This document shows, one piece after another, positions 10,044 through 63,298 of a stretch of 64,000 nucleotides of DNA. Each line of letters starts with the position of its first letter. Position 1 is the stretch's first letter. The position numbers and the translations under genes are program-made. The stretch spans positions 62,001 through 126,000 of the forward strand of contig JAEUSM010000007.1 in assembly GCA_016788785.1 (NCBI GenBank). The letters are read 5' to 3'. The stretch comes from Candidatus Kapaibacterium sp. (GTDB lineage Bacteria; Bacteroidota; Ignavibacteria; Kapaibacteriales; JAEUSM01). Under the pieces are notes generated by a model. The model had not been told where the DNA came from. It saw nothing but the letters and a program-made list of their open reading frames with translations, and did no database searches.

Positions 10044-11813
10044 TTATCCTATGATTATTGTTTCCTTTGCATAAGAAATTCGAACATTTGGTTCTTGTTT
10101 TACAAAGGCAATAATTAATGTTAACACACCGACTCTACCAACGAACATAACGACTGTTATCAAAATTTTACCTCCATCACCCAAGAATGGAGTAGTATTT
10201 CTTGATAATCCAACAGTTCCCATAGCAGAAACAACCTCAAACAACAAATCTAACGTGTTTTTTGAAGGTTCTATAGCAGTCAAAACTACACTTGCTAACC
10301 CAATCACAAAAACAGAAACGATGATAGCAGAAAATGCCTTCCGAATGCTTTCATCGCTGATTTGACGATTAAACAATTCAACACGTTCTTTTTTTCGAAC
10401 AAAATTGTAAATCATTAATAATACAACAGCAAATGTAGTAGTCTTCACACCACCACCAGTAGAAGAGGGTGACGCTCCAATCCACATTAGAAACAACAAA
10501 ACAAGAACTGTTGAAGGATGATACAAATTCATAGCAACCGTATTAAAACCTGCGGTACGAGTTGAAATAGACATAAACAATGAATGAAACCATTGATCAA
10601 ACAACGACATATTGTTTATATGTGGAGAATTGACCATTTCCAAAAACCAAATAGAAATTGTCCCAAAAATCAACAAAAATACTGTTGTTATTAACACTAA
10701 TTTTGTGGTCATAGACAAACGGTTTATAACACCTTTTTGATTTCGATTTTTAAAATACGCCCATAAATTTGATAAAACTGGAAATCCCAGTCCACCAAAA
10801 ATAATCAACCAACCAATGGAAGAAAGATACACATAATTAGAATTTACCTGAGCATTCATCATTCCATCTGGATAGGTTGAAAATCCAGCATTACAAAAGG
10901 CAGAAACAGAATGAAAAATGCAACTATAAAACTTTTGGTGATCCAAAGGAAAAATTGTTCCTCCTAAGGACGTGTAAAGAAATAGGAATCCAATTGCTTC
11001 TATCACAATAGTAAATGTTGCAATTTTTAATAGTAAACCTGAAACTTCACCTATACTATTTTCACTCAACAAGTCAGACATAAACAACCGTTCTCGTACA
11101 CTCAACCCCCCTGCAAACAATAAGGCAAAAAAAGTAGAGAGCGTCATCACACCAAGCCCACCGATTTGGATAAGAAATGTTATGACAAAAAGTCCTAACG
11201 GCGTAAAAGTGGACGGTACATCAATTGTAGTAAGTCCTGTAACGCAAACTGCACTAGTCGAAGTAAACAATGCATCAACGACAGAAATCCCAGTTTTTGT
11301 TGCTTTTGGAAGAAGCAACAGCAACGTTCCGGTTATAATAATAAATGCAAAACTCAGTGCAAAAACAGCTCCAGGTTGAATTTTTACCTTTGTAAGAACA
11401 TGATTGTATCGCATTGCTCCAATGAGAAATGCCAAAAAAAACAAAATCTGTGAAACTGCAAGATAGGCTAAAGTAAGTTGTTCCGCATTAGAATTTGGAA
11501 TGAAATAATTGAAAAATTGTTGAAAAAATGGAGGGTAAGCAAATTGCAAAATTAATAAACAAACTAAGGTAATTTCAAACCATCGTTCTTTGAAAAACAC
11601 GTGTTTATTGGTATAGAGGATATAACGCAGTATTTCCTGTGCTATAAAAAACACAGAAATTGATTTGACAAAAACTTCTATGAGTGAAAATTGTTCCGGT
11701 GTTATGTAAAATCCAAATTCAAAAAGTAATGCACCTACAGATAAAATACCTGAAAAAATGAGAAGGAAATCAAGTGTAGAAATGATTCTTTTTTTAGTAT
11801 CGATCTTTATCAT
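10044..11813 (-). CDS. TrkH/KtrB-type potassium transporter subunit
   Basis: Integral membrane K+ translocating subunit, 589 residues. The four pore loops carry the selectivity glycines in CVTGL, CNAGF, RTAGF and GTVGL. A Ktr/Trk core normally has eight membrane segments. Here about 130 extra N-terminal residues add several more hydrophobic helices, an extension also known from Bacteroidota relatives. The regulatory RCK subunit is encoded immediately downstream, and pyk ends three bases upstream. Pyruvate kinases commonly need K+, but this adjacency may be coincidental. Confidence 0.93.
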   Translation of the reverse strand: MIKIDTKKRIISTLDFLLIFSGILSVGALLFEFGFYITPEQFSLIEVFVKSISVFFIAQEILRYILYTNKHVFFKERWFEITLVCLLILQFAYPPFFQQFFNYFIPNSNAEQLTLAYLAVSQILFFLAFLIGAMRYNHVLTKVKIQPGAVFALSFAFIIITGTLLLLLPKATKTGISVVDALFTSTSAVCVTGLTTIDVPSTFTPLGLFVITFLIQIGGLGVMTLSTFFALLFAGGLSVRERLFMSDLLSENSIGEVSGLLLKIATFTIVIEAIGFLFLYTSLGGTIFPLDHQKFYSCIFHSVSAFCNAGFSTYPDGMMNAQVNSNYVYLSSIGWLIIFGGLGFPVLSNLWAYFKNRNQKGVINRLSMTTKLVLITTVFLLIFGTISIWFLEMVNSPHINNMSLFDQWFHSLFMSISTRTAGFNTVAMNLYHPSTVLVLLFLMWIGASPSSTGGGVKTTTFAVVLLMIYNFVRKKERVELFNRQISDESIRKAFSAIIVSVFVIGLASVVLTAIEPSKNTLDLLFEVVSAMGTVGLSRNTTPFLGDGGKILITVVMFVGRVGVLTLIIAFVKQEPNVRISYAKETIIIG

Positions 11814-11816
11814 AGA

Positions 11817-13268
11817 TCATAAAGTTTCTATAGAAAGCATGTTAGTGCGAGACTTCTTTTGAAGCGGACGACCAATTGTAATCACAATATTTGTTCCTGC
11901 TTGATAGAATTTCCGTTTTACCAACATTAGCTTAATGTCTTCGATAGTTTGGTCTGTGGTAGTAACTTGTTCGATTAAAAATCCCGTAGTTCCCCAATAC
12001 AAACCAACTCGTCGAACAGTTTCTATTTTTTCCGAGAATGAAATTAATGGTGCATTTGGTCTACGTTTAGAAATCAATAATGCAGTCTCACCAGATAAAG
12101 ACAAAGTAGCAATACCTGAAATTCTTGGGTCAGAAGACATAGTTGCTGCCGCCGAGGCAATAGCATCTGTTTTGTGTTCTTTTGACGCTGTTTTATATTG
12201 AATCGTATGAAAATCTAAATGTAATTCACGTTCTGTTTCTGAACAAATCATTCGCATATAGGTTACTGCTTCAATAGGGTATGCACCAACGGAAGTTTCT
12301 GCCGAAAGCATTACAGCGTCTGTACCATCAAAAACAGCATTTGCCACATCAGATGCCTCAGCTCTTGTAGGACGTGGGTTTTGAATCATCGATTCTAACA
12401 TTTGTGTTGCCGTTATAACTGGTTTGAAATAGGCATTACACATTGAAATAATTTTCTTTTGAACAATTGGAACCAATGCAGAACTAATTTCTACGCCAAG
12501 ATCTCCGCGAGCAACCATTACTCCATCGGATACTTGAATAATTTTTTCTAAATTTACAATTGCTTCTGGTTTTTCAATTTTTGAAATTATAGGAATAGTA
12601 ACACCAAAATTTTGCATAAACTTACGGATACGCAAAACATCACTGGCTGTTCTTACAAAAGAAGCAGCAACGTAATCTACTTTATTTTCAATTGCAAATT
12701 TCAAATCAATCGCATCTTTTTCGGTCATGACAGATTGAGAAAAATTCGTATTTGGTAAGTTCATTCCCTTTCGAGATTTAAGCAAACCTCCATTGATGAC
12801 AACTACTTTTACCAATTCTCCTTCTTTTCCGATAACTTGTACTTTCAACAACCCATCATCAAAAAGAATTGCATCTTCAATTTTGACATCTTTTGCAACG
12901 GTTGGATAGGTAATAGGAATAACTTCATCATAGGAGAGTTTGTTTTGTTTGACATACTCAGTATCTGCAAGATACATTTCTCTACCTGGAATAAGATTTA
13001 TTCCTCCGTTAACTCCTAAATCAGCAACACGAAGCTTTGGACCTTGTAAGTCAGCTATAATGGGAACATAGTATTGCAATTGCTTTTCAGCTTCTCGAAT
13101 AATTCTGATTGATTCTAAATGAGTTTGATGACTACTATGAGACATATTCAATCGAAAAGCATTTGCTCCTGCTTGAATAAGTGCAACGATTTTTTCAACA
13201 GAAGAGATAGCTGGACCAACGGTACAAAGTATCTTTGTTTTATTATTTAAAGCTCTGGTAAAATTCAT
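11817..13268 (-). CDS. pyk: Pyruvate kinase
   Basis: Glycolytic enzyme converting phosphoenolpyruvate and ADP to pyruvate and ATP, 483 residues. Visible motifs are KILCTVGPA, FRLNMSH, ISKIEKPEA around the catalytic lysine, MVARGDLGVEI, TATQMLESM and PTRAEASDVANA. The C-terminal allosteric domain is present. It leads into the potassium uptake pair with a three-base gap. Enolase, the preceding glycolytic step, is elsewhere in this window (50574-51848). Confidence 0.97.
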   Translation of the reverse strand: MNFTRALNNKTKILCTVGPAISSVEKIVALIQAGANAFRLNMSHSSHQTHLESIRIIREAEKQLQYYVPIIADLQGPKLRVADLGVNGGINLIPGREMYLADTEYVKQNKLSYDEVIPITYPTVAKDVKIEDAILFDDGLLKVQVIGKEGELVKVVVINGGLLKSRKGMNLPNTNFSQSVMTEKDAIDLKFAIENKVDYVAASFVRTASDVLRIRKFMQNFGVTIPIISKIEKPEAIVNLEKIIQVSDGVMVARGDLGVEISSALVPIVQKKIISMCNAYFKPVITATQMLESMIQNPRPTRAEASDVANAVFDGTDAVMLSAETSVGAYPIEAVTYMRMICSETERELHLDFHTIQYKTASKEHKTDAIASAAATMSSDPRISGIATLSLSGETALLISKRRPNAPLISFSEKIETVRRVGLYWGTTGFLIEQVTTTDQTIEDIKLMLVKRKFYQAGTNIVITIGRPLQKKSRTNMLSIETL

Positions 13269-39708: not shown

Positions 39709-41661
39709 CTAAAAACTAATTCGAGATAATAATGTAACATTCGGTAATTCACGCGTCAAGATACCGCTTGAACGTTGGAACTCATACCATCCAAATAATG
39801 AAATAAAAGAATTTTCTGAAAACGTATATCGAATATCAACTTCCGGTCCTGGCACAGTTTGAGAAATATCCGAAGAGATAGCATTCCTTTGTAGTAAGTT
39901 TTTTTGTTGCATACTATAGAAACGAGATCCAATACCAAGTTTACATTCTTTTGAAACAGAAGCAAAAAACAGTACCCGAAAAAAAGTTTCTAACGATTGT
40001 AACTCTGGCAATTCTGAGAAAGTTTCCCAATAAAGTCTTCCACGTTCAAAATATCGTATATATGCTCTTGCCTCAAAATAATACTTTGGCGACAATGCCA
40101 AAATTGTACTATCACGAAACAAGATTTGTCTAAAACTAAAACTACGAATTTGTTCTGGAATTTCAAAATCGTACACCGTATAATTGGCTAAGAGTTCTAA
40201 TGAAGTAACTGTTGAAAACTTTGCTGTGTTGACTAGAAAATTCGTCCCTAATTTTAAAATGGAATTTACATTATTTAAAGAACTTCGCTCTTTTTTTAGA
40301 TAGACAAGATGAGTAGATTGACCAGAAAAATAGTATTGAATTGCAGTAACATCATTAATCTTTTTACTGTAAAGTACGTTACCAATTATCGTTTGTTCGT
40401 CTCGATCATCTCGATTTATTTCACTTGGTGTATCATATCGCAAAATTCCAATGGAAGAACTAATTTGAAGTGTGTCATCGGAAAATATTTTTGATGTTAT
40501 ATCAGTTCCAACACGCAAACGAGATGTGCTATTATCTCGATTAAACTCACTTCTGCGTAATTCCGTTTCCTCAAAAGGCAAAAGAGGAAATGCTACCGAA
40601 ACCTGGTTTTCTTCTTTTCTTGAAACAAATTGCATCCAGAAACTTTGTCGATAATTATTTTTATTATATAACAAAGAGCCTTGAGTGGAAAATTGCAATT
40701 CATCTAAGGTTCGTATAATTGACGTTTGTGGTACTAATGCAATAGAACTCCTAAAACCTCGAGGGATTGCAGCTTGGTCAACGGAAATTTGGAATTGTGA
40801 TGAGAGAAAATCACCGAGTTGAATTTGCAAATCAGTCCCTAAAGAAAATCTATTTTCTACCCTTGTCTCAACAATTAGATCTTGAAAACCACTTCCAACA
40901 GGCGTAAAAAAATCTCGTTGCAATCTTCTATATCTTGTGAAAAATCGTGCTAGATTCCCATTAAAAAAATCTCGTTCAGAAACTATATCAACATTAACAT
41001 CACTATTTATTCGATTGGTGTCTAATTGCAAATATTCGCTTCTAATACCACCATACAGCAAGTACTCGTCAATTTTTATTGGTTGAAGAATTGAACTTCC
41101 TTCGAAAGCAAGTGCATTTGCAATGATGCCCAATTGATTATTACGTTCAAACCCGGTCAAAACAGAGGTAGTCCATTGCTTTATAGGCGTATATTCTATT
41201 CCCCCCATTGTTGTATTTCGTTCTAATTTGTTCAGTTCTATGGAGCGACTATCAGAGGACAATAACCACGAATGTTTGGCAATGGCTTTTAGGGTTGGGA
41301 TAAGTTCTTTATTATAACGAATAACTAGAAATTGGTCGTCACGAAAAGCAGTCGTGATAACTCGGATTCCAGTTCCAGAATACTGTTGTGAAATATTGAA
41401 ATCTCCGATAGAAGTATTGAGATTCATCAAACCATTACAAAAAAAGGTAATGGTATTTGCCAATTTTTTGAAACCGTAATCAATTGATTGGATATTTTGA
41501 GTTAAAGATGAGTCTGCTTGAGAAAAAACAGAAGAATATGACAACCCAATAAAGAGAAGAATACACGGTAATTTGAAAAACGAAAAAGAAAAATTATCTA
41601 CCGGTTTCGGTGATAATAATTTCTGTTCTTCTATTAAGACGTCTTCCAAATTCTGTTGCAT
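39709..41661 (-). CDS. Outer-membrane beta-barrel protein of unknown function
   Basis: About 650 residues. The signal peptide is FFKLPCILLFIGLSYSSVFSQ, and the rest is amphipathic beta strand ending in LLSRISF, the C-terminal Phe of barrels. I do not recognise the family. The start is uncertain: after the upstream VWA-OmpA stop (41594) no ATG precedes the signal peptide, so translation must begin inside that gene's 3' end in the +1 frame. Options are ATG at 41661, TTG at 41649, or a more distant ATG at 41718. All give an unusually long n-region before the signal peptide. Confidence 0.7.
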   Translation of the reverse strand: MQQNLEDVLIEEQKLLSPKPVDNFSFSFFKLPCILLFIGLSYSSVFSQADSSLTQNIQSIDYGFKKLANTITFFCNGLMNLNTSIGDFNISQQYSGTGIRVITTAFRDDQFLVIRYNKELIPTLKAIAKHSWLLSSDSRSIELNKLERNTTMGGIEYTPIKQWTTSVLTGFERNNQLGIIANALAFEGSSILQPIKIDEYLLYGGIRSEYLQLDTNRINSDVNVDIVSERDFFNGNLARFFTRYRRLQRDFFTPVGSGFQDLIVETRVENRFSLGTDLQIQLGDFLSSQFQISVDQAAIPRGFRSSIALVPQTSIIRTLDELQFSTQGSLLYNKNNYRQSFWMQFVSRKEENQVSVAFPLLPFEETELRRSEFNRDNSTSRLRVGTDITSKIFSDDTLQISSSIGILRYDTPSEINRDDRDEQTIIGNVLYSKKINDVTAIQYYFSGQSTHLVYLKKERSSLNNVNSILKLGTNFLVNTAKFSTVTSLELLANYTVYDFEIPEQIRSFSFRQILFRDSTILALSPKYYFEARAYIRYFERGRLYWETFSELPELQSLETFFRVLFFASVSKECKLGIGSRFYSMQQKNLLQRNAISSDISQTVPGPEVDIRYTFSENSFISLFGWYEFQRSSGILTRELPNVTLLSRISF

Positions 41662-42967
41662 TCGTGGTAATTGGTTTTGATTTTCCAAATCCTTTTGTAG
41701 AAATTCTATTTTGCTCAACGCCTTTTCGCACTAAATAATCTTTCACCGCTTTTGCACGCTTATCCGACAAAATCAAATTCGATCGATCACTTCCAATATT
41801 ATCGGTATGGCCTTCAATAAGAATTCTTACACCTTTTCTATTAACCATAAACTGGTGAAGAACTTCTAATTCCTTCACAGAATCAGGCAATACATTTGAC
41901 CCAGTAGGAAAGAGTAGATTTTCAATAATCAATTTTCGTTGAATTTCTAATACTGGAATTGTTTTACGTAAGAGTTCATTTCCAGAAGAATTTACAATAG
42001 CAACATTGATAGAATCAGGAATAGCTGGTTGAGCAGTAACATACGAAATTGCAAATAAATTAGTCAATTGCATCGCATACTGAGCCAAAATATTTGCAAA
42101 TGGTACTCGTATATCAAAAACACTTCCTCGCGAAGATGAAGTTAGTGTATCATATTCTTTTAACGGTAATGGTGAGATGCTAAATAAACGAAGGTCATTC
42201 TTTTTCAAATACTCCTTCATCGATTTAGTAGTATAATTGGTTTTTCCATTTCCATTGACTTCACCTCGTTGGTGATACGGTGCATCTGTAATGATGATAA
42301 TAACTTTATTCGCAGAAGGTCGAAATTGAATACGAGAAGTAGCATGTAAAGCCTCTAATGCATTTTCTTTCTCATCCATTCCACCTGCAGCCTTAATAAA
42401 AGACAGCCATGCCAAAAATGTTTTGATATTATCGGTTGGTTGATATACTTGTTCTACATTATCAGAGTAGGTGATAAGACCTAAACGACAATCAACTCCA
42501 CGTTGTTTTATTGCTTGTGTGAATTTTTCTATGTTGTTCCGGGTTTCATCAATATACTTTTGCATTGTACCGGTAACATCAATAACAAATACAAAGTCTA
42601 TCGGCAAAACCTGATTGATGGATATTTTTTTGATACTTAATATCTTTTGCTGTTTTCCACTTTCCAACAATGTCAAATCATCAGCATAGATAGTATCCAA
42701 AGGTTGTCCATTGGTTTTTATTGCTTCGATAATAAGAGAGACAACAGGATAATTTTTAATGTCAATGTTTTGAACAATCATAGTAAAGTACTCAGGATTT
42801 TTAGGCTTCAAATTAGCCATATCCATCATTCGACTCATACGTATTTTATTCGAATCTGCATCACTATAGTCCAAAGAGTCTTTTCCTGCTTTAGCTTGAA
42901 CCAAGGTAGGTGCTACTAACGCAGGAAATACTACAAATAAAATTACCAACAGAATTAAACGAAGCAT
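41594..42967 (-). CDS. VWA domain-OmpA fusion protein
   Basis: About 457 residues from Met at 42967, which directly precedes the signal peptide (MLRLILLVILFVVFPAL). An earlier Met at 43015 would place a terminator hairpin inside the coding sequence. A beta-rich N-terminal segment comes first, then a von Willebrand A domain with MIDAS-like DVTGTM (Asp130, Thr132, Thr134), and a C-terminal OmpA domain with IEGHTDNIGSDRSNLILSDKRAKAVKDYL and NRRTEI. OmpA domains bind peptidoglycan; VWA domains usually mediate metal-dependent protein contacts. The architecture parallels 61739-63298. Confidence 0.87.
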   Translation of the reverse strand: MLRLILLVILFVVFPALVAPTLVQAKAGKDSLDYSDADSNKIRMSRMMDMANLKPKNPEYFTMIVQNIDIKNYPVVSLIIEAIKTNGQPLDTIYADDLTLLESGKQQKILSIKKISINQVLPIDFVFVIDVTGTMQKYIDETRNNIEKFTQAIKQRGVDCRLGLITYSDNVEQVYQPTDNIKTFLAWLSFIKAAGGMDEKENALEALHATSRIQFRPSANKVIIIITDAPYHQRGEVNGNGKTNYTTKSMKEYLKKNDLRLFSISPLPLKEYDTLTSSSRGSVFDIRVPFANILAQYAMQLTNLFAISYVTAQPAIPDSINVAIVNSSGNELLRKTIPVLEIQRKLIIENLLFPTGSNVLPDSVKELEVLHQFMVNRKGVRILIEGHTDNIGSDRSNLILSDKRAKAVKDYLVRKGVEQNRISTKGFGKSKPITTNATEFGRRLNRRTEIIITETGR

Positions 42968-42984
42968 TATAGTATTATAGGAAC

Positions 42985-43038
42985 GAAAAACCCCTGCTAC
43001 TGACTGAGAATTCACTCATTCGATAGTGGGGGTTTTTC
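42985..43038 (-). terminator. Terminator-like hairpin between 472-residue protein and VWA-OmpA genes
   Basis: A 15-bp stem (two G-U pairs) formed by GTGGGGGTTTTTC and GAAAAACCCCTGCTA, followed on the minus strand by a short U-run. It lies 16 bases after the upstream stop and only 18 before the VWA-OmpA start, so it can act as terminator or attenuator between two genes of one run. Confidence 0.75.
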
Positions 43039-43053
43039 ATAAAATGTTGTTCT

Positions 43054-44472
43054 TTAAATTGTTAAACGAAGTACAGGAGAAATCATGAAAAAGTTTTTCA
43101 ATTCGAATGGTCTTGCTTCTCTTGTTAAAGGAGTAGAATATTTGCCTTCAAGATACAACCACTCACCAAATAACGGAACATATGCTGATCCCAAAAGAAT
43201 TTGATTAGAGTATTGAATGCTCATTCCAAAAGGAAAATCTTTTTGATTTCTATATTCTAATTTCAAATACAACCAATCTGCAAATTCATTTGGTTTGTAT
43301 GTTAATAGATTCGTAGCATCAAATCCTAAATAATCATCAAATCGATTTACTGGATTGCTAGATTTGAACATTGCAGCTTCTCGAACTTCAGCATAACTAA
43401 TACCAGCATCTGCACGGAAAAAGTTATCTGCTTTTTCGTCAATCCACCAGTTGTAGAATAATGTTACTTGACCAGTTGCACGTAATATCGGAACAACTTC
43501 ACGAACTCTATTCGCAGGAATAGTTGGGTCAACTATACCAGTTTCATCACCAATATCTTCTCTATCTTCTGAAATGAAATAAGAACGATAAGAACCAAAA
43601 TCAACTGTATTTGATCTACGAACAGGCTGCAAAGGCAATTCCAAATTGAAGTTAATACCAGCTTGTGGGTGGAATGGAGCAAACAACTCTAAACCAGCAA
43701 TAAATTTTCCACCTTGCGCAATACTCAATTGTCTATCTGGAATCACGTTCAAAAAGTCTTTAGTCGCTACCTCGTTATTCAATCTGTATCCATACCCTAA
43801 TTTAGCATTTACTAAAAATGGAATGGCAATTTTAGAATCTTTATCATCATTTTTAATCAAAGGTCTTTGTAGAATAGTTTTTGCTTCACCAGCTGACCAA
43901 AAGTGATAACCAACTTCATCGGTTCCTAATTTGTTGATAATCCAAAAACCAACATCTTCATTACCAATTTTTAATGCTTGTTCAAATCCAGACAACACTA
44001 TTGAGTGAGTTGTATTTGTTGGCATTTTATAGTTGATAATTGCATCACGTTGATCTTTATCAGGAAGTTCTGTCAAAGGAACATCTTTGTAACAATAGGT
44101 GCTTTTGTCAGTTAATTCTGTTGCAACTTTTCCAATTTTAGCGATATCAGCTTTTTTGATTGTTGCAGTTCCACACTGAATTAAAATGATTTGAGCGACT
44201 GAGCTGGATTGAGGGGCAGCAGTAATTGTAATTCTATTCAGATCCAAAGATGTTGCAGGAAATCCTAAACGAGTAAATGCTTGTTGAATTTTCACTTGCA
44301 TTTCTGGCTGACATACAGTCCAACGTGGGAAATATTTCAATATATCAGGATCAATAGTTTGTATCGATGATAATATAGTACTATCTGTTGCCATTGCAAA
44401 ACCAACAGATTTTGTCATTGGAAATAGCAAACAAACAGCAAATAATAATGTAAATAGTTTATATAACTTCAT
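43054..44472 (-). CDS. Secreted protein, probable outer-membrane barrel
   Basis: A 472-residue protein with a signal peptide (LFTLLFAVCLLFPMTKSVGFA). The N-terminal 180 residues form a mixed soluble domain with four Cys (VCQPEM, IQCGTA, TYCYKD) that could pair as disulfides. The remainder is strand-rich with aromatic-flanked segments (KLGYGYRLNNE, FYNWWIDEKADNFFRADAGISYAEV, YLKLEYRNQKDFPFGMSIQYSNQ) and ends SPVLRLTI, consistent with a barrel. I do not recognise the family. Layout resembles the neighbouring 569-residue protein (soluble N-domain plus C-terminal barrel), suggesting distant paralogy or partnership. Confidence 0.65.
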   Translation of the reverse strand: MKLYKLFTLLFAVCLLFPMTKSVGFAMATDSTILSSIQTIDPDILKYFPRWTVCQPEMQVKIQQAFTRLGFPATSLDLNRITITAAPQSSSVAQIILIQCGTATIKKADIAKIGKVATELTDKSTYCYKDVPLTELPDKDQRDAIINYKMPTNTTHSIVLSGFEQALKIGNEDVGFWIINKLGTDEVGYHFWSAGEAKTILQRPLIKNDDKDSKIAIPFLVNAKLGYGYRLNNEVATKDFLNVIPDRQLSIAQGGKFIAGLELFAPFHPQAGINFNLELPLQPVRRSNTVDFGSYRSYFISEDREDIGDETGIVDPTIPANRVREVVPILRATGQVTLFYNWWIDEKADNFFRADAGISYAEVREAAMFKSSNPVNRFDDYLGFDATNLLTYKPNEFADWLYLKLEYRNQKDFPFGMSIQYSNQILLGSAYVPLFGEWLYLEGKYSTPLTREARPFELKNFFMISPVLRLTI

Positions 44473-44521
44473 AGTTTCGTTTTTATAGTAATTGAATATG
44501 GTTAATTCAAATGATTCACAG

Positions 44522-46231
44522 TTAGAAATTCAGTATAAATCGAGCCGTTGGCAAGAACACACTTGAGCGTTCCCAAGAATATGCTTCACGAATAACAGGA
44601 GCAAAGAATCTACCATCTAAACGCAAATTAAATTCATCAGTAATTGGTATTTGTAACCACGCTGTTCCAGAAAGTGCCGCATCAAAAAATTGTAGAGAAA
44701 CCCCAAAAGGTGTAGATGCTGCTGTATTCATATATTCTACTCTACCAAGGATACCACCAATAAATTGGTTACGAGAATTGATACTTGTATCTTTTACTCC
44801 TCCACCACCGTCATCGATTTCAGTTTTATACCATGCTTCAACACCATAAAATGCACCACCAAGTCTAAAACGGAATAAATTCGTATTATCAACTTTGATT
44901 GCAAATGTATAGGATAATGCACCGTGTGAACGAATGAGGAAATTACGTAACTCACCACCTTCTTTTTGATTTGCTAACAACAATTCATCTTGGATGGTAG
45001 CATCACCAGAAACAAATGAAGCTGAAGCATTGAAAACACCAGTCTCGGAAGGAATCACTGGAATATTAAAATCAATAGATCCATTAACCCCAATTCCACC
45101 TGTTGTAAGTGTTCTTTTTGCTCCAAAATTATCCGAAACTCCTGCCCATCCAGAAGATGGCAGAACTACGCCCAATCTTGCACCACCCCAAATAGCATTT
45201 AAGGACATTCTATTTGACCATACGGAAGGATAGTTGATATCCTCAATACCGTATTTTAGCTCAACACCATATTTTGGCAAAGAACGGTTGTAGATGAGTA
45301 CTTCTTTTTCAACAGTTTCTTTTACCATTTTAGAAGAATCTGCATAATCAGGAACCATAACAGTTTCTTTGATTATTTTTTTAACGGGATCTCCATAGTA
45401 TAAGTAGCTAATTCCGTCAAAAGCACCCACAGTTAAAACGTGTGGATTGTAAAAATCAACTGGAGAACCTTCAGAGATTCTTATATATGTTTGAACATCA
45501 TTTTGAGAAATAGTATCAGCTACACCAATTGGTTTTGCTAAAAAGCCAGATCCCAAATCTTGAATGTCCGCTGTTTTATCTTCGTATGCCCCTTGTAGAA
45601 TTTGATTTTCGCAATATTCTTTAAGTGATAATGAAGTATTTGAAATTGACAGTTTGCTCAAATCATATACAGTGTAAGGATTCGAAACTTGAGAGATATT
45701 ATCCTCAATTCCACTACCACCCATTGCTGCTTTTACAGTAAGCAAGCCGATAATTTGAGGAGTTTCATTTCTATCGAAACGTTTGTCGTTGTAACGAACA
45801 GTTATAACATACGCATTGTCAAAAATTGCTTCTTCATACTCCTTCATTCGCTGAGTAAAGGTTATAAAAGCTTTACAGGGACCGCTTTTAGTTATTTGAC
45901 CATGTTCAGGTATATTTTGGTCAAATTCTCCACCTTCTTCATCAAATACTCTACGAATCTCATCTTGAAATTCTGTTTTACAATTACTTGCACCAGCAAA
46001 TTGATTGATATCTGGTTTTTTTAATGGAACCAACACATCAACTAAGGGTTGCAAATTTGACAGCTCCATTACAGATATATTTCCATAACGATAGTTCTGC
46101 AAATCTTTTAGCTCTTTACGAATAATAGGAGCATTTGGGTTTATTTCTGAATCTTCTGCAGTTAGTACTGTTGCTGACATTGTCATCGACACAGTTAACA
46201 CTGACAAGAATCCAAATTTCAAAACATTCAT
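44522..46231 (-). CDS. Secreted protein with probable C-terminal barrel
   Basis: A 569-residue protein with a signal peptide (FGFLSVLTVSMTMSATVLTA). An N-terminal domain of roughly 200 residues contains paired cysteines (SNCKTEF, GPCKAF). A barrel-like C-terminal half shows repeated strands (RMSLNAIWGGARLGVVLP, GIGVNGSIDFNIPVIP, NLFRFRLGGAFYGVEAW) and ends in ARFILNF. The family is not recognised. It lies 35 bases downstream of the GldM-sized gene and 49 upstream of the 472-residue protein, so the three form one transcription unit. Confidence 0.65.
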   Translation of the reverse strand: MNVLKFGFLSVLTVSMTMSATVLTAEDSEINPNAPIIRKELKDLQNYRYGNISVMELSNLQPLVDVLVPLKKPDINQFAGASNCKTEFQDEIRRVFDEEGGEFDQNIPEHGQITKSGPCKAFITFTQRMKEYEEAIFDNAYVITVRYNDKRFDRNETPQIIGLLTVKAAMGGSGIEDNISQVSNPYTVYDLSKLSISNTSLSLKEYCENQILQGAYEDKTADIQDLGSGFLAKPIGVADTISQNDVQTYIRISEGSPVDFYNPHVLTVGAFDGISYLYYGDPVKKIIKETVMVPDYADSSKMVKETVEKEVLIYNRSLPKYGVELKYGIEDINYPSVWSNRMSLNAIWGGARLGVVLPSSGWAGVSDNFGAKRTLTTGGIGVNGSIDFNIPVIPSETGVFNASASFVSGDATIQDELLLANQKEGGELRNFLIRSHGALSYTFAIKVDNTNLFRFRLGGAFYGVEAWYKTEIDDGGGGVKDTSINSRNQFIGGILGRVEYMNTAASTPFGVSLQFFDAALSGTAWLQIPITDEFNLRLDGRFFAPVIREAYSWERSSVFLPTARFILNF

Positions 46232-46266
46232 TGTTATTATAATTTATATTATAAAATTTTTTACGA

Positions 46267-48507
46267 TTAGAATCCTACTTGAACAGTATATTTTCTACTT
46301 TTATTAGATCTTTGACCATTTATGACACTAGCAGCTTTTACATTAACTCTAAAGCTACCTTTTAATCTTCCTGGTTTATATTTTGGTCCAACCAATTGGG
46401 CTTGTATAGTAAATTTACTTCCAGATTGTTTTGGACTACCAATAATTTTTAATGAGTATTTAGCATCTTTAGCATCTAAATTTACAATTTTCACATCTGA
46501 AGGATCAATAGCAAATTCTGGCGTGCCCTCTAATTGTCCTGTTTTTGTAGAACCGTCATCAGAACGAACAGATGGAGGTTCTACTTCAAAATTTGTTACA
46601 TCAAAAATTTGAGCAGTATTTGGAGAACCAACCACTGGCAAGCCACGAAGACGAGGCCCTGGAGGTCTAACAGGAAATGTTTTTTTATAAATTAATAACG
46701 GTGGATCTTTTTCATTGTAACGAGATTTCCAGAAAATTTCAAAGTCTAAACTTCTAGCACTTTCAGGAACATATTTAGCATCGGATGCATCAATACGTAA
46801 TTTTCCTTTTATTGAAGCATCTAACACCCCATTATCAGATTTGATAGTCATAGAGTATTCACTCGGCGAAATACCTGAGGCAGATGTTGCAGCTGCTGGA
46901 AGAAGTATCAAATCTCCCATACTCAAATCAAATGCACTTTCAATATCATCAGAGTTAGTTATACCCGTATAGCTGTCACCATTTTGTTTTGATGGGAATA
47001 CATTAACAGCTAATGGAACTTCTTCAGAAACCTTTCCATTACCTTCCCATGCAACCTTGATGTTATAATTTCCTACTGCAGTATTTGCGTTTTGTATAGG
47101 AATGTAAAGTATTTTTGAAACAAATCCTTCGCCAGTGGTTGCTGTAGAATTACCTGCACGAATTTCAGCACCAGCGATGTCTTTGACACTAAATTTAGGA
47201 TTTCCATTAGATGGGAACACTTGACATGGTACTTCGATATATCCTAAGGATTCGAACACACGTACTAAGTCTGTTTCCAACGTAATTTTTGGAGGAGCAG
47301 TAGGACGTGGAGGAGGATTCATTACGAAAACGTTGAACTCGATAGAACCTCTATTTTGATCAAAATCTTGAGACAAACCAGGAGCTAATAGCTTTGCAAT
47401 ATAACCATATAATTCGACACGATTTGCTAATGATGCTTTTTCTTGGTCATTTGGACCAGCTTGAGCAGCAACTTCAGCAGCTTTTGCTTTTGCATCAATA
47501 ATTCGTTTGTTGAAATCATCTAAGGTAATTTTTTTACCGCGTAAATCATCTGCAGTAGGAACGGAAAATGCACCTAATTTTTTACGTAATTCTTTTTCAA
47601 CTTTGATAAGGTCTTTTACTTTTAATTGTACAGTACCGATATTGATTTTCGCTTCAGGATTTAATTCTTTTGAAGAACCATCATCATCTGCAGAAGCAAC
47701 ACCTAATACTTTATTTGTACGAGAACTGAAACGCAATTTATACCATCCGCCTTTTGCAGGAGGTTGGAATCGTACCATAAACGCACGTTTTGTGATAGAA
47801 TTTCCATAATTTAGTTTCGCTAAATTATCTGTTTTTTCTTGCGAATACGTAAATGCAGAGTCATCAGTTTTACCAGGTGGAACAAAACTTGGACCTTTGA
47901 CTAACGAATATGGCTTATAAATTGGATTTCTATAGTCTTGAGTATTATTGACATCTAATTCAATTTTTCTCATTGATTGGAATTGCCAACCCTGATCACC
48001 AATTTGAGCACCTTCAGATAAATCAGCAAATTTCGTTTTACGAGCTTCATCATCCATTAAAAACACTGGAGCGTTATTAGGGTCAGAAGAAGCGTTGTAG
48101 AAGACTTGGTATTCAAGTTCTTGAACATTTGCTAACATTTTTCGTTTTTTCTCGAAGTCTTTTTTGTCTGCGGGTGATGCACTATTATCTATTTTCATAT
48201 TAGCAACATCCGTTACCCCAACTTCGATCACATAGGTTCTATCTTCCTTTATTTCAGGATCACCCGGCTCTTTAATGTACCCAGCAGGTTTTAGAGTAAT
48301 CTGGTCTTGCGGACGAGTGTTGATCCCTTCCGAACCAGCACCTGTTTGCATTTGACCCAGAATACTTTCAAGAATCTTCATCGATTCTTTTTGTTTAGCA
48401 AGTAAATGCTCTTCTGCCTCATCACGCTCAACGATAATGATGAGAAGTTCCAAAATTACTGCCAAATAGAGTACGAAGTATACCTTACCAGCACTTCCTG
48501 ATCCCAT
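46267..48507 (-). CDS. Membrane-anchored periplasmic multidomain protein, GldM-sized
   Basis: A 746-residue protein with a short N-terminus (MGSGSAGK), one membrane helix (VYFVLYLAVILELLIIIV), a helical/coiled segment, and then about 600 residues of consecutive beta-sandwich-like domains with a helical insertion near 330-390 (LRKKLGAFSVPTADDLRGKK). Repeated Pro/Gly-rich junctions suggest Ig-like modules. The layout, one N-terminal helix plus a string of periplasmic beta domains, resembles GldM/PorM, the T9SS rod, and T9SS cargo is present in this genome. I saw no sequence motif that proves homology, and GldL or GldN is not adjacent. An AAAGGA Shine-Dalgarno lies upstream. Confidence 0.6.
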   Translation of the reverse strand: MGSGSAGKVYFVLYLAVILELLIIIVERDEAEEHLLAKQKESMKILESILGQMQTGAGSEGINTRPQDQITLKPAGYIKEPGDPEIKEDRTYVIEVGVTDVANMKIDNSASPADKKDFEKKRKMLANVQELEYQVFYNASSDPNNAPVFLMDDEARKTKFADLSEGAQIGDQGWQFQSMRKIELDVNNTQDYRNPIYKPYSLVKGPSFVPPGKTDDSAFTYSQEKTDNLAKLNYGNSITKRAFMVRFQPPAKGGWYKLRFSSRTNKVLGVASADDDGSSKELNPEAKINIGTVQLKVKDLIKVEKELRKKLGAFSVPTADDLRGKKITLDDFNKRIIDAKAKAAEVAAQAGPNDQEKASLANRVELYGYIAKLLAPGLSQDFDQNRGSIEFNVFVMNPPPRPTAPPKITLETDLVRVFESLGYIEVPCQVFPSNGNPKFSVKDIAGAEIRAGNSTATTGEGFVSKILYIPIQNANTAVGNYNIKVAWEGNGKVSEEVPLAVNVFPSKQNGDSYTGITNSDDIESAFDLSMGDLILLPAAATSASGISPSEYSMTIKSDNGVLDASIKGKLRIDASDAKYVPESARSLDFEIFWKSRYNEKDPPLLIYKKTFPVRPPGPRLRGLPVVGSPNTAQIFDVTNFEVEPPSVRSDDGSTKTGQLEGTPEFAIDPSDVKIVNLDAKDAKYSLKIIGSPKQSGSKFTIQAQLVGPKYKPGRLKGSFRVNVKAASVINGQRSNKSRKYTVQVGF

Positions 48508-48627: not shown

Positions 48628-48948
48628 TTACTTATTATCAGACACTGGTTTTGCGACAGCTTCTGTTTTTGTTTCAACAGTCTTAACGGCTTTTTTGGTG
48701 CTACAGCAACCTTCAGATTTTACGTTAGATACTTTTGTAGCTTTAGAAGAACAAGATTTTGCGTCAGAAGCTTTTGTTGCTTTTGATGCACAACATCCTT
48801 CATCAGAAACTTTCGTAACTTTTGCAGAAGTAGTTTTACTGCAAGAAGCTTCAGTTTTTGATGCTTTGTCACCACATTTTGCAAATGATGGTGATGTAAT
48901 TCCAAATGATAGACCTAATACGACTGCTATAGCGATAAGGTTTTTCAT
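48628..48948 (-). CDS. Small secreted cysteine-rich repeat protein
   Basis: A 106-residue protein with a signal peptide cleaved after SPSFA. The mature part is low-complexity Lys/Ser/Thr/Ala with seven cysteines as C, C, CC, C, CC, spaced by units resembling KVSDEGCCASKATKAS. The pattern suggests metal or disulfide binding in the periplasm, and I recognise no family. It has an AAAGGA Shine-Dalgarno eight bases before ATG and its own terminator, so it may be highly expressed as a single gene. Confidence 0.75.
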   Translation of the reverse strand: MKNLIAIAVVLGLSFGITSPSFAKCGDKASKTEASCSKTTSAKVTKVSDEGCCASKATKASDAKSCSSKATKVSNVKSEGCCSTKKAVKTVETKTEAVAKPVSDNK

Positions 48949-61032: not shown

Positions 61033-61758
61033 TTAGTTCCTAATATGAAGTGGTTGATAACGAGTTCCTGTCACTGTTTCGAACATCACCCAATAGTTAC
61101 CAGATGCCCAAAGAGGACCTGGTGTGAATTGGAATCTATGAACACCAAATGGCACATTTTTAAAATCACCTATTAAGGTTTGAGTTCCGTTGAGTGTTAC
61201 TGCATAAAATCGCACATCAGACGGAATATCGATTTGATAGGCAAAGGTGACAGTCTCTTGAGAAGAAATTGGATTTGGAAAACCAGGATCAAAAACGGAA
61301 AATCGTACATACGGTCGTCTCGTGCCTACAGATGTTGTAAGCAATCGAATTTCCAAATTATCTAAAGGATTATCATTTACTCGTAGGTCTGCTATTTGAA
61401 TTGTTGCTGTCGAATCATTCCCTGCTAATGCTGTTCCCCAAAGAAAGAAAGCAGTGTCTGAGGATTCATTAGCAGTTACCGTTGCTACCAACGAATAGGT
61501 TGAGTCAGTAATACGCGTTAATGAGTGGTTTGAAATAATTGACGTTGAAGTTTGAGACAAACCATCGGGGAAAAATACCGTTGGATTGGAAAGTTTTATT
61601 GTTGCGGAAAAAGAAAATTCTCCTGGAGCAAGTGATAACAGAATTGGAAGTTCGTATTGTTTACCCACTTCCAATACATACGATTGAGCAAAACCCATTT
61701 GAAACGATGAAACGAGCACTGCTAAAATAACGAGTATTTTATTTTTCGATAATAACAA
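61033..61758 (-). CDS. Secreted protein with cohesin-like and T9SS sorting-like domains
   Basis: About 242 residues from a proposed TTG start at 61758, which puts a good signal peptide first (LLSKNKILVILAVLVSSFQMGFAQ). The open frame extends to an ATG at 61827, inside the upstream OmpA domain, giving a poor N-terminus. Residues after the signal look like a cohesin-like beta-sandwich (VLEVGKQYELPILLSL, KLSNPTVFFPDGL). The last ~80 residues resemble a type A sorting/FlgD-Ig domain: PGFPNPISSQETVTFAY, FKNVPFGVHRFQF, ASGNYWVMFE. It could be T9SS cargo, or a shorter surface protein using the same fold. Confidence 0.65.
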   Translation of the reverse strand: MLLSKNKILVILAVLVSSFQMGFAQSYVLEVGKQYELPILLSLAPGEFSFSATIKLSNPTVFFPDGLSQTSTSIISNHSLTRITDSTYSLVATVTANESSDTAFFLWGTALAGNDSTATIQIADLRVNDNPLDNLEIRLLTTSVGTRRPYVRFSVFDPGFPNPISSQETVTFAYQIDIPSDVRFYAVTLNGTQTLIGDFKNVPFGVHRFQFTPGPLWASGNYWVMFETVTGTRYQPLHIRN

Positions 61759-63298
61759 ACTCTGTTCTCCTATTTTTAGCTCTGTTTTCGGGAGTCGTAT
61801 TTGGTACAATAGGTTTTGATTCGCCAAAACCTTTTGTTGTCATTCGATTAGGGTCAATCCCCATTGAAATGAGTACTTTTTTGACTGATTTTGCGCGTTG
61901 CTCTGAAAGATTTTGGTTGTCATCTTCAGATCCCACGTCATCGGTATGTCCGCGTATTTCTATTTTAATTGACTTGCTATTTTGTAAAGAAGTAGCTATC
62001 TTTTGAATCTCACCGAACGACTCTTGAAGCACATCAAATTTTCCGGTTTCAAAAAGAATATCTACAAAGGTAATACTATTCAAAGGCGTAAATTTATTAA
62101 AAACAGATTTATCATACATTCCATTATCGGTAAAGGTCGCATTGTTCATTTCAGGTAATTTCAACGACACATTGAGCGTATGAATACCTTCACATTCGGG
62201 TGCTTTATAGGTGAGTTTGTAATAACCACGTAACCTGCGATAAATATCCCCAAAGACAAAAGGAAATTCTCTGGTAGTGTAAATTCTATACAATCTTCCG
62301 GCAGTATAATCAGCCATAGATTGCAAAAAGCTTTCATCTGTTAATCCGTATGCAATGGGATAAATAGCAATGCCTTTTGATGATGCATAATTGATAATAC
62401 TATCTAATTTGACTTTGGAAGAGTTATCATCACCGTCGCTAAATAGCACAATAGATTTTTGTAAAGTATCCTTTGCATTTAAATATGAAGTATTTATCCC
62501 AAAAACTGTTGAGCCTTTTTTCTGATCTAAATGATTAATTGCCATGTGGACAGCATCAAATAAAGCAGTTCCACCCCCATGATTATCTAAACCATTTACT
62601 TGAAATTTTGAGCTATAAAACGTTCTGTCATTTGAAAGAGGAACTTCTAACTCAATATTCGTATCAAATTTAATGACACCGATATAATCGGACTTTTTGA
62701 TATATTTAAAATTTGCTTGGAGAGCTTCTTGTAGTTTAGTAGCACGTTTTGTACCCATTGAACCTGAATGATCCAACACAAACATAATCGCATGTGAATT
62801 GGCAGCGTCTTCACGAATCTCTTCGATTTTATAGTTCTCTACTTTTGTTGAAACACCATTACACGAATCAATTACAGAAAACCAATAATTTTTATAATCT
62901 CCAATTCCAGTAAATTTTGGAGGTGCTAATCCACTAATATATTTGCCATCTGCATCATAGAGAAATAATTTTGCTGTTACTTCCTTAGGATAATTATGTG
63001 CATCAACTGACAATACTTCAAAGCGAATTTGTTGGGAAAGAAGTTCTAATTCTTTTTTAACGGATTCTGGAAGATTGAGTCTTTCTGCGGGAGTAAGCTT
63101 CTTGTAGGCTTCAATTCGTTCTAACAACGAAGTATACTGTTGAGCCGATTTCAAATAGACAGGCTTATACCCTTTTGGAGGAAGCATTTTCTCCATTTGG
63201 TCAACCAATGTATGTGGGCAACCAAAGAGGAAAAACACTGGTAAAACCATCAACAATTGTATAACTACTTTACGAAATGAATTCTGTTGTTTTTTCAT
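61739..63298 (-). CDS. VWA domain-OmpA lipoprotein
   Basis: A 519-residue lipoprotein (lipobox LFGC, Cys27). An N-terminal domain with beta strands (VTAKLFLYDADGKYISGL) precedes a VWA domain with an intact MIDAS, LDHSGSMG (Asp176, Ser178, Ser180), and SDGDDNSSK. The C-terminal OmpA domain has GHTDDVGSEDDNQNLSEQRAKSV and NRRTEF. It parallels the 41594-42967 protein in domain order but is lipidated and has a perfect MIDAS. It starts four bases before the DUF58 stop. Confidence 0.9.
   Translation of the reverse strand: MKKQQNSFRKVVIQLLMVLPVFFLFGCPHTLVDQMEKMLPPKGYKPVYLKSAQQYTSLLERIEAYKKLTPAERLNLPESVKKELELLSQQIRFEVLSVDAHNYPKEVTAKLFLYDADGKYISGLAPPKFTGIGDYKNYWFSVIDSCNGVSTKVENYKIEEIREDAANSHAIMFVLDHSGSMGTKRATKLQEALQANFKYIKKSDYIGVIKFDTNIELEVPLSNDRTFYSSKFQVNGLDNHGGGTALFDAVHMAINHLDQKKGSTVFGINTSYLNAKDTLQKSIVLFSDGDDNSSKVKLDSIINYASSKGIAIYPIAYGLTDESFLQSMADYTAGRLYRIYTTREFPFVFGDIYRRLRGYYKLTYKAPECEGIHTLNVSLKLPEMNNATFTDNGMYDKSVFNKFTPLNSITFVDILFETGKFDVLQESFGEIQKIATSLQNSKSIKIEIRGHTDDVGSEDDNQNLSEQRAKSVKKVLISMGIDPNRMTTKGFGESKPIVPNTTPENRAKNRRTEFVIIEK

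Follow-up and report, generated by a model that had tools for sequence, protein, structure and literature searches.

Among described secretion machineries, the locus analysed here comes closest to parts of the type 9 secretion system (T9SS): the motor pair GldL-GldM (PorL-PorM), the PorV/FadL-fold outer-membrane barrels, the PorE/OmpA-family anchors and the SprF/PorG-GldK coupling. GldL carries a strictly conserved glutamate in its second transmembrane helix, E49, which the F. johnsoniae motor needs in order to work (PMC8986121). GldM has an all-helical first domain followed by the domain-swapped, all-beta domains D2 and D3 (PMC5790014), and the coupling of SprF/PorG with GldK at the outer membrane is disulfide-linked (PMC12635249). 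When secretion systems were surveyed with GldKLMN profiles, the T9SS was found in Bacteroidetes proper only (PMC4793230). The window studied here, 64,000 nucleotides of a Candidatus Kapaibacterium sp. genome (contig C7 of genome G000, positions 62001-126000), holds a four-gene operon, a good candidate for a component of the missing type 9 motor of Kapabacteria. No description of this cluster was found in the literature searched, a search that was not exhaustive.

The source genome measures 2.97 Mb and is 99% complete, and the statements on its content rest on profile searches. SprA is present on contig C18 (855 bits together with its neighbours in frame) and was detected in 60 of the 61 class genomes. 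A PorU-like C25 protease of 1897 aa with a weak sorting tail lies on contig C6, and about 140 places in the genome pass the cut-off for type 9 sorting domains, in line with the T9SS cargo that the first-pass annotation had read from the sequence. GldK, GldL, GldM and GldN were not found above cut-off in this genome or in the sampled members of its class and order. Over the 148 genomes sampled from the phylum they passed in 36, 36, 36 and 35 genomes, respectively, none of which belongs to this class. Matches related to GldK do exist below the cut-off, one of them in the window genome. A canonical gldLMN locus elsewhere in the genome, the observation that was to speak against a divergent T9SS core, was thus sought and none was seen above cut-off; the co-occurrence looked for at the same time was found for SprA, not for GldL and GldN.

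Three open reading frames of the cluster, for proteins of 746, 569 and 472 aa, were confirmed at the positions initially reported, all on the minus strand. A fourth gene beyond the interval 43054-48507, coding for a VWA/OmpA protein, belongs to the cluster as well. The features are as follows.

46267..48507, minus strand: operon gene 1, 746-aa single-pass periplasmic protein, GldM-like in plan, candidate axle (open reading frame, predicted model, conservation)
48343..48495, minus strand: residues 5-55 of the 746-aa protein, near-invariant predicted membrane helix and extension, with Glu20 in mid-membrane and E27-R28-D29 (model and alignment)
47308..48324, minus strand: residues 62-400, predicted mixed beta/helix periplasmic domain (model)
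46270..47301, minus strand: residues 403-746, three predicted serial Ig/FnIII-like beta domains (model and fold search)
44522..46231, minus strand: 569-aa secreted protein with an N-domain and a predicted FadL/PorV/BamG-like outer-membrane barrel, residues 246-569 (open reading frame, model, fold search)
43054..44472, minus strand: 472-aa secreted protein with an N-domain (motif YFPRWxVCEPDLQ, conserved Cys100) and a barrel homologous to that of the 569-aa protein (profile comparison)
41594..43015, minus strand: gene 4, VWA domain and OmpA peptidoglycan-binding domain, probable anchor (family match, synteny)

The intergenic gaps are 35, 49 and 38 bases. Since these gaps are short and the gene order is conserved, the four genes probably form a single operon. 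Just upstream of the 746 gene, a 106-aa secreted cysteine-rich repeat protein is encoded at 48628-48948 (minus strand), and similar-looking small cysteine-rich open reading frames occupy the equivalent site in the order relatives L023, L025, L026, L028, L029, L030 and L039. At the other end, a 669-aa open reading frame (39709-41718, minus strand) overlaps the 3' end of the VWA/OmpA gene and lies outside the conserved cluster; it has no family match and, judged by its sequence, resembles an outer-membrane protein. The 746-, 569-, 472- and 669-aa proteins gave no significant match in Pfam, NCBIfam or PHROGs.

Within the order of the window genome, 746 was present in 114 of 119 genomes, and in 98 of the 101 near-complete ones, which makes it a core gene there. 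The full series 746, 569, 472, VWA/OmpA was found in the same order and on the same strand in 35 of 36 informative loci read with their flanks, 34 of them in the order and one in the neighbouring family f11. As for incomplete loci, L030 and L205 stop at a contig edge and L152 is without the VWA gene. Identical order and strand in 35 loci, together with the presence of 746 in 114 of 119 order genomes, place this fixed arrangement far beyond chance. A search for related loci with the single 746 sequence returned no match; with the 746 alignment 139 relatives were retrieved, and most of the 80 listed were MAGs of Kapabacteria, Ignavibacteria or Bacteroidota. Family f45 (L160, L161, L207, L209, L211 and L213) has two 746 paralogues, one with the barrels and the second with a GldL-like gene; this second paralogue stands, without barrels, in six loci of the family.

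The AlphaFold2 model of the 746-aa protein (mean pLDDT 81) predicts one N-terminal helix of 51 residues (5-55). In this model residues 62-400 form a mixed domain and residues 403-746 three beta domains in series, each of Ig/FnIII-like type, a layout that agrees with the single-helix anchor and serial beta domains proposed at first. Residues 1-58 are strongly conserved across 38 orthologues; all 38 keep Glu20, which lies midway along the membrane helix, and E27-R28-D29, where the helix ends. The predicted model thus has the single N-terminal membrane helix and the serial periplasmic domains of GldM, but its first domain is mixed beta/helix and not all-helical, and three beta domains follow. No match was found for 746 in the PDB by sequence or with the GldM/PorM profile (TIGR03517), and alignment of 746 with GldM by hhalign gave 1.9%, that is, no sequence relation. 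The f35 746-like protein, the GldM-like B protein described below and the single-TM proteins of Ignavibacteria did not match GldM by hhalign either. In the fold search (Foldseek/VIA) the matches listed were generic beta-sandwiches (S-layer, fibronectin, cadherin), and GldM was not among them, a listing that excludes nothing and cannot decide on GldM. Of the structural resemblance anticipated by the first-pass annotation, the helix and the serial domains were recovered, GldM was not among the fold matches listed, and the profile-profile comparison did not bear out the name GldM. By the criteria tested, profile comparison places 746 outside the GldM family; the 746-type single-TM proteins may still share an ancestor with GldM. 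The connection to GldLM rests on the neighbours and on the GldL-like partner family, not on 746 itself.

The predicted model of the 569-aa protein (pLDDT 79) starts with a signal helix, continues with an N-domain and closes with a FadL-like barrel (246-569). The predicted barrel matched FadL/TodX best (Z 14.6), followed by chain 9n2d_B of a Bacteroidota BAM complex (12.3) and by chain 8gl6_F of a T9SS complex (11.3), which we take to be PorV. The likeness to PorV and FadL-fold barrels, the FadL-like Bacteroidota BAM component included, is one of modelled fold; unlike these, the 569-aa protein has an extra N-domain of about 215 residues and no sequence family match. The barrels of 472 and 569 are homologous (hhalign 96.8%, E 2.4e-10), so that both C-terminal ends are barrel-like as proposed, one by model and the other by homology. 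The Ignavibacteria-type barrels have an N-domain homologous to the one in 472 (97.7%, E 2e-12); this subtype appears sparse because its profile matched only four genomes of the class. A 73% hhalign match of the barrel N-domains to GldN came from the signal peptide alone and was gone once this was removed. PorP/SprF (TIGR03519) gave no NCBIfam match to 569 or 472 up to E 5, so that the suggested PorP-like identity has no profile support.

Cysteine-containing N-domains had been read in both proteins. This holds for 472, with C100 in 26 of 27 sequences and C54 and C127 each in 21 of 27, and not for 569, in which the cysteines are not conserved. An outer-membrane barrel with a conserved cysteine (C100 of 472) at a motor locus recalls SprF/PorG-GldK, but GldK is absent and the twin-cysteine motif was not seen. 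That the 106-aa cysteine-rich protein has a disulfide role with the cysteines of 472 is only a thought. In the product of gene 4 the OmpA domain is C-terminal, as in the PorE/OmpA-family anchors of the T9SS; unlike in PorE, a VWA domain precedes it, and the score of 61.7 bits is far under the PorE cut-off of 600. A second VWA/OmpA-like protein, at 61739-63298 (minus strand), scores 84 bits against the gene 4 product.

A GldL-like gene adjoining 746 inside the window was a first guess that the gene content of the window ruled out. By profile search, three GldL-like genes were located in the genome, all outside the window:

G000:C6:143641-144954: GldL-like A, 437 aa; the next gene downstream is the PorU-like C25 protease
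C6:146512-147414: GldL-like B, 300 aa, adjoining the gene for another single-TM protein (478 aa, GldM-like)
C15:350082-351017: GldL-like C, 311 aa

Judged by sequence, A and C have two additional hydrophobic segments at the N-terminus. GldL-like A stands directly upstream of the PorU-like gene in each of the seven order genomes examined, a statement on genomic context and not on interaction, and in most of the order genomes examined the B pair is located away from it. At locus L071 (G000:C6:134500-154400, positions 10574-12915) the B pair of 300 and 478 aa was seen beside GldL-like A and the PorU-like gene.

Pooled B-type sequences aligned with 25 GldL sequences at 95.0% (hhalign, E 3.6e-8) over 91 columns, which span the two membrane helices and the cytoplasmic helix that follows. 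Single-pair hhalign E-values are not database E-values, so the case leans on the controls: 3.5% for the reversed profile, 45.9% (E 2e-4) for the best of 30 profiles shuffled in windows, 0.4-0.5% for the N-terminal hairpins of A and C, and 0.0-0.4% for GldM and GldN. A, B, C and the GldL-like proteins of Ignavibacteria form one family (96-99%; B to the others 96-97%). A-type sequences alone reached 2.6-6.7% against GldL, no clear match, all types pooled reached 42%, and C alone also fell below this pooled value; the link of A to GldL therefore runs through B. GldL itself (TIGR03513) had no match in the window genome, nor did the GldL-like proteins match it by NCBIfam. A transmembrane glutamate is conserved in 15 of 15 GldL-like proteins and aligns with GldL E49. 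As far as profile comparison with these controls goes, the B-type proteins are distant homologues of GldL.

Gene neighbourhoods in relatives connect this family with 746. In six f45 genomes a GldL-like gene lies directly upstream of a 746 paralogue; for the two that were scored, the fit to the A type (312-316 bits) is much better than that to the C type (100-108 bits). Family f35 combines, in this order, GldL-like B, GldM-like B, GldL-like A, a 746-like protein (531-535 aa), two barrels and VWA/OmpA, and in f8 and f7 a GldL-like gene occurs with a single-TM protein and two barrels. Class relatives carry the N-terminal helix of 746 on proteins of about 200 aa, with a two-TM coiled-coil gene directly upstream and a secreted protein of about 360 aa plus two barrels downstream. 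The f35 746-like protein is homologous over its full length to the f35 GldM-like B protein (hhalign 99.4%, E 1.3e-21) and matches 746 at 98.6% over 46 columns, mainly at the membrane helix; because it links the two, 746 groups with the single-TM partners of the GldL-like proteins. A GldL-like gene thus lies directly upstream of the f45 746 paralogues and of the f35 746-like gene; in the window genome the GldL-like genes are at other loci. From the joint cluster of f35 and the pairing in f45 we infer that the operon of the window and the cluster on C6 are probably two halves of one ancestral cluster, and GldL-like A is probably the partner of 746, being the best candidate.

T9SS parts without GldKLMN, a core gene 746, its GldL-like neighbours and the adjacency to PorU together favour a motor. 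Our main reading, with a probability of roughly 0.6, is that the operon supplies a divergent, proton-driven 5:2 motor of the GldLM type with its periplasmic axle and with its receiver in the outer membrane, and that this motor most likely powers type 9 secretion instead of GldKLMN. Two copies of 746 would be enclosed, in the inner membrane, by five GldL-like subunits arranged as a ring, for which the 437-aa gene outside the window beside the PorU-like protease is the best candidate. Proton flow via acidic membrane residues (Glu20 of 746 and the transmembrane glutamate of the GldL-like protein) would make the 746 dimer turn or swing; its serial domains would cross the periplasm and push the N-domains of barrels 569 and 472, and the VWA/OmpA protein would tie the barrel assembly to peptidoglycan. 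Coupled to SprA, such a motor would energise the type 9 secretion of the lineage in place of GldKLMN. The 746 system probably works like GldLM: both have a GldL-like protein with a transmembrane glutamate and a single-TM protein with serial domains, here in a genome with SprA, PorU-like and sorting-domain genes. They differ in the sequence and the predicted first domain of the axle, in the two extra N-terminal hydrophobic segments of the A-type partner in the order and in the absence of GldK and GldN. Of the ideas put forward at the outset, an inner-to-outer-membrane conduit or divergent T9SS core is the best supported; the identities with GldM and PorP were not upheld by profiles.

Against this motor count the lack of sequence similarity of 746 or any GldM-like protein here to GldM, the predicted mixed first domain of 746, the want of a clear match between A-type sequences alone and GldL, and the presence of three GldL-like proteins and a second GldM-like protein, which gives several possible T9SS pairs. 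The window operon might be a second trans-envelope motor of the GldLM type with another task (surface motility, envelope constriction or a Tol-like function), the B pair of 478 and 300 aa driving the T9SS. The B type is indeed the one that resembles true GldL, and a genome with both pairs could conceivably run two motors for different tasks. We nevertheless hold this to be unlikely: f35 has both pairs and the barrels in one cluster, PorU is flanked in seven of seven order genomes by the A type, to which the partner of 746 belongs, while the B pair is mostly elsewhere, and the two pairs may work together.

A passive envelope complex, in which 746 is a strut linking the inner membrane, the two barrels and the peptidoglycan anchor, perhaps with some transport of small hydrophobic compounds, is in our view improbable. 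It would suit the FadL/TodX match of the 569 barrel, the tethering suggested by the VWA/OmpA protein and the generic beta domains of 746, but a near-invariant membrane helix with a mid-membrane glutamate is hard to square with a passive strut, GldL-like genes beside 746 paralogues and 746-like proteins are hard to explain, and chains of the T9SS and of Bacteroidota BAM have a FadL-like fold too. A genuine GldKLMN-PorP system that has diverged very far, with 746 as GldM orthologue and PorP-like barrels with fused ring functions, shares the plan of one TM helix and serial domains and has a partner family homologous to GldL, but is very improbable given that no profile links 746 to GldM, the barrel N-domains to GldN or the barrels to PorP/SprF.

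The GldLM-type motor for type 9 secretion can be extended to an evolutionary proposal, to which we give somewhat less than even odds: in Kapabacteria and some of the Ignavibacteria group an axle unrelated to GldM or diverged beyond recognition (746, with its own mid-membrane Glu) would replace GldM, the barrel pair, with periplasmic N-domains that take up the force directly, would replace the GldK/GldN ring, and the ancestral clusters would have held two such motors next to each other. SprA and sorting domains occur here in a class neighbouring Bacteroidetes proper, and a motor candidate would explain how secretion is energised. It would also show the GldLM design in a second set of sequences, independent of the first, by which essential features could be separated from accidental ones, and profiles made from the GldL-like/746 system would help to find it in uncultured genomes.

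The observation that weighs most against the main reading is that about half of the class has SprA and none of these GldL-like proteins or barrels (f6, f9, f36, f37, f40, f41, f42 and most of f7), so SprA in relatives does not require the 746 module; either these classmates have yet another motor, or SprA depends on something other than this module. The first seven of these families had SprA and no GldL-like proteins and, where sampled, no GldKLMN. The C-terminal domain of 746, about 130 residues, was seen to recur in several genomes of the order as short separate open reading frames (G105:C2:164267, G101:C7:155941, G101:C8:58505-59376 and G251:C51:30821).
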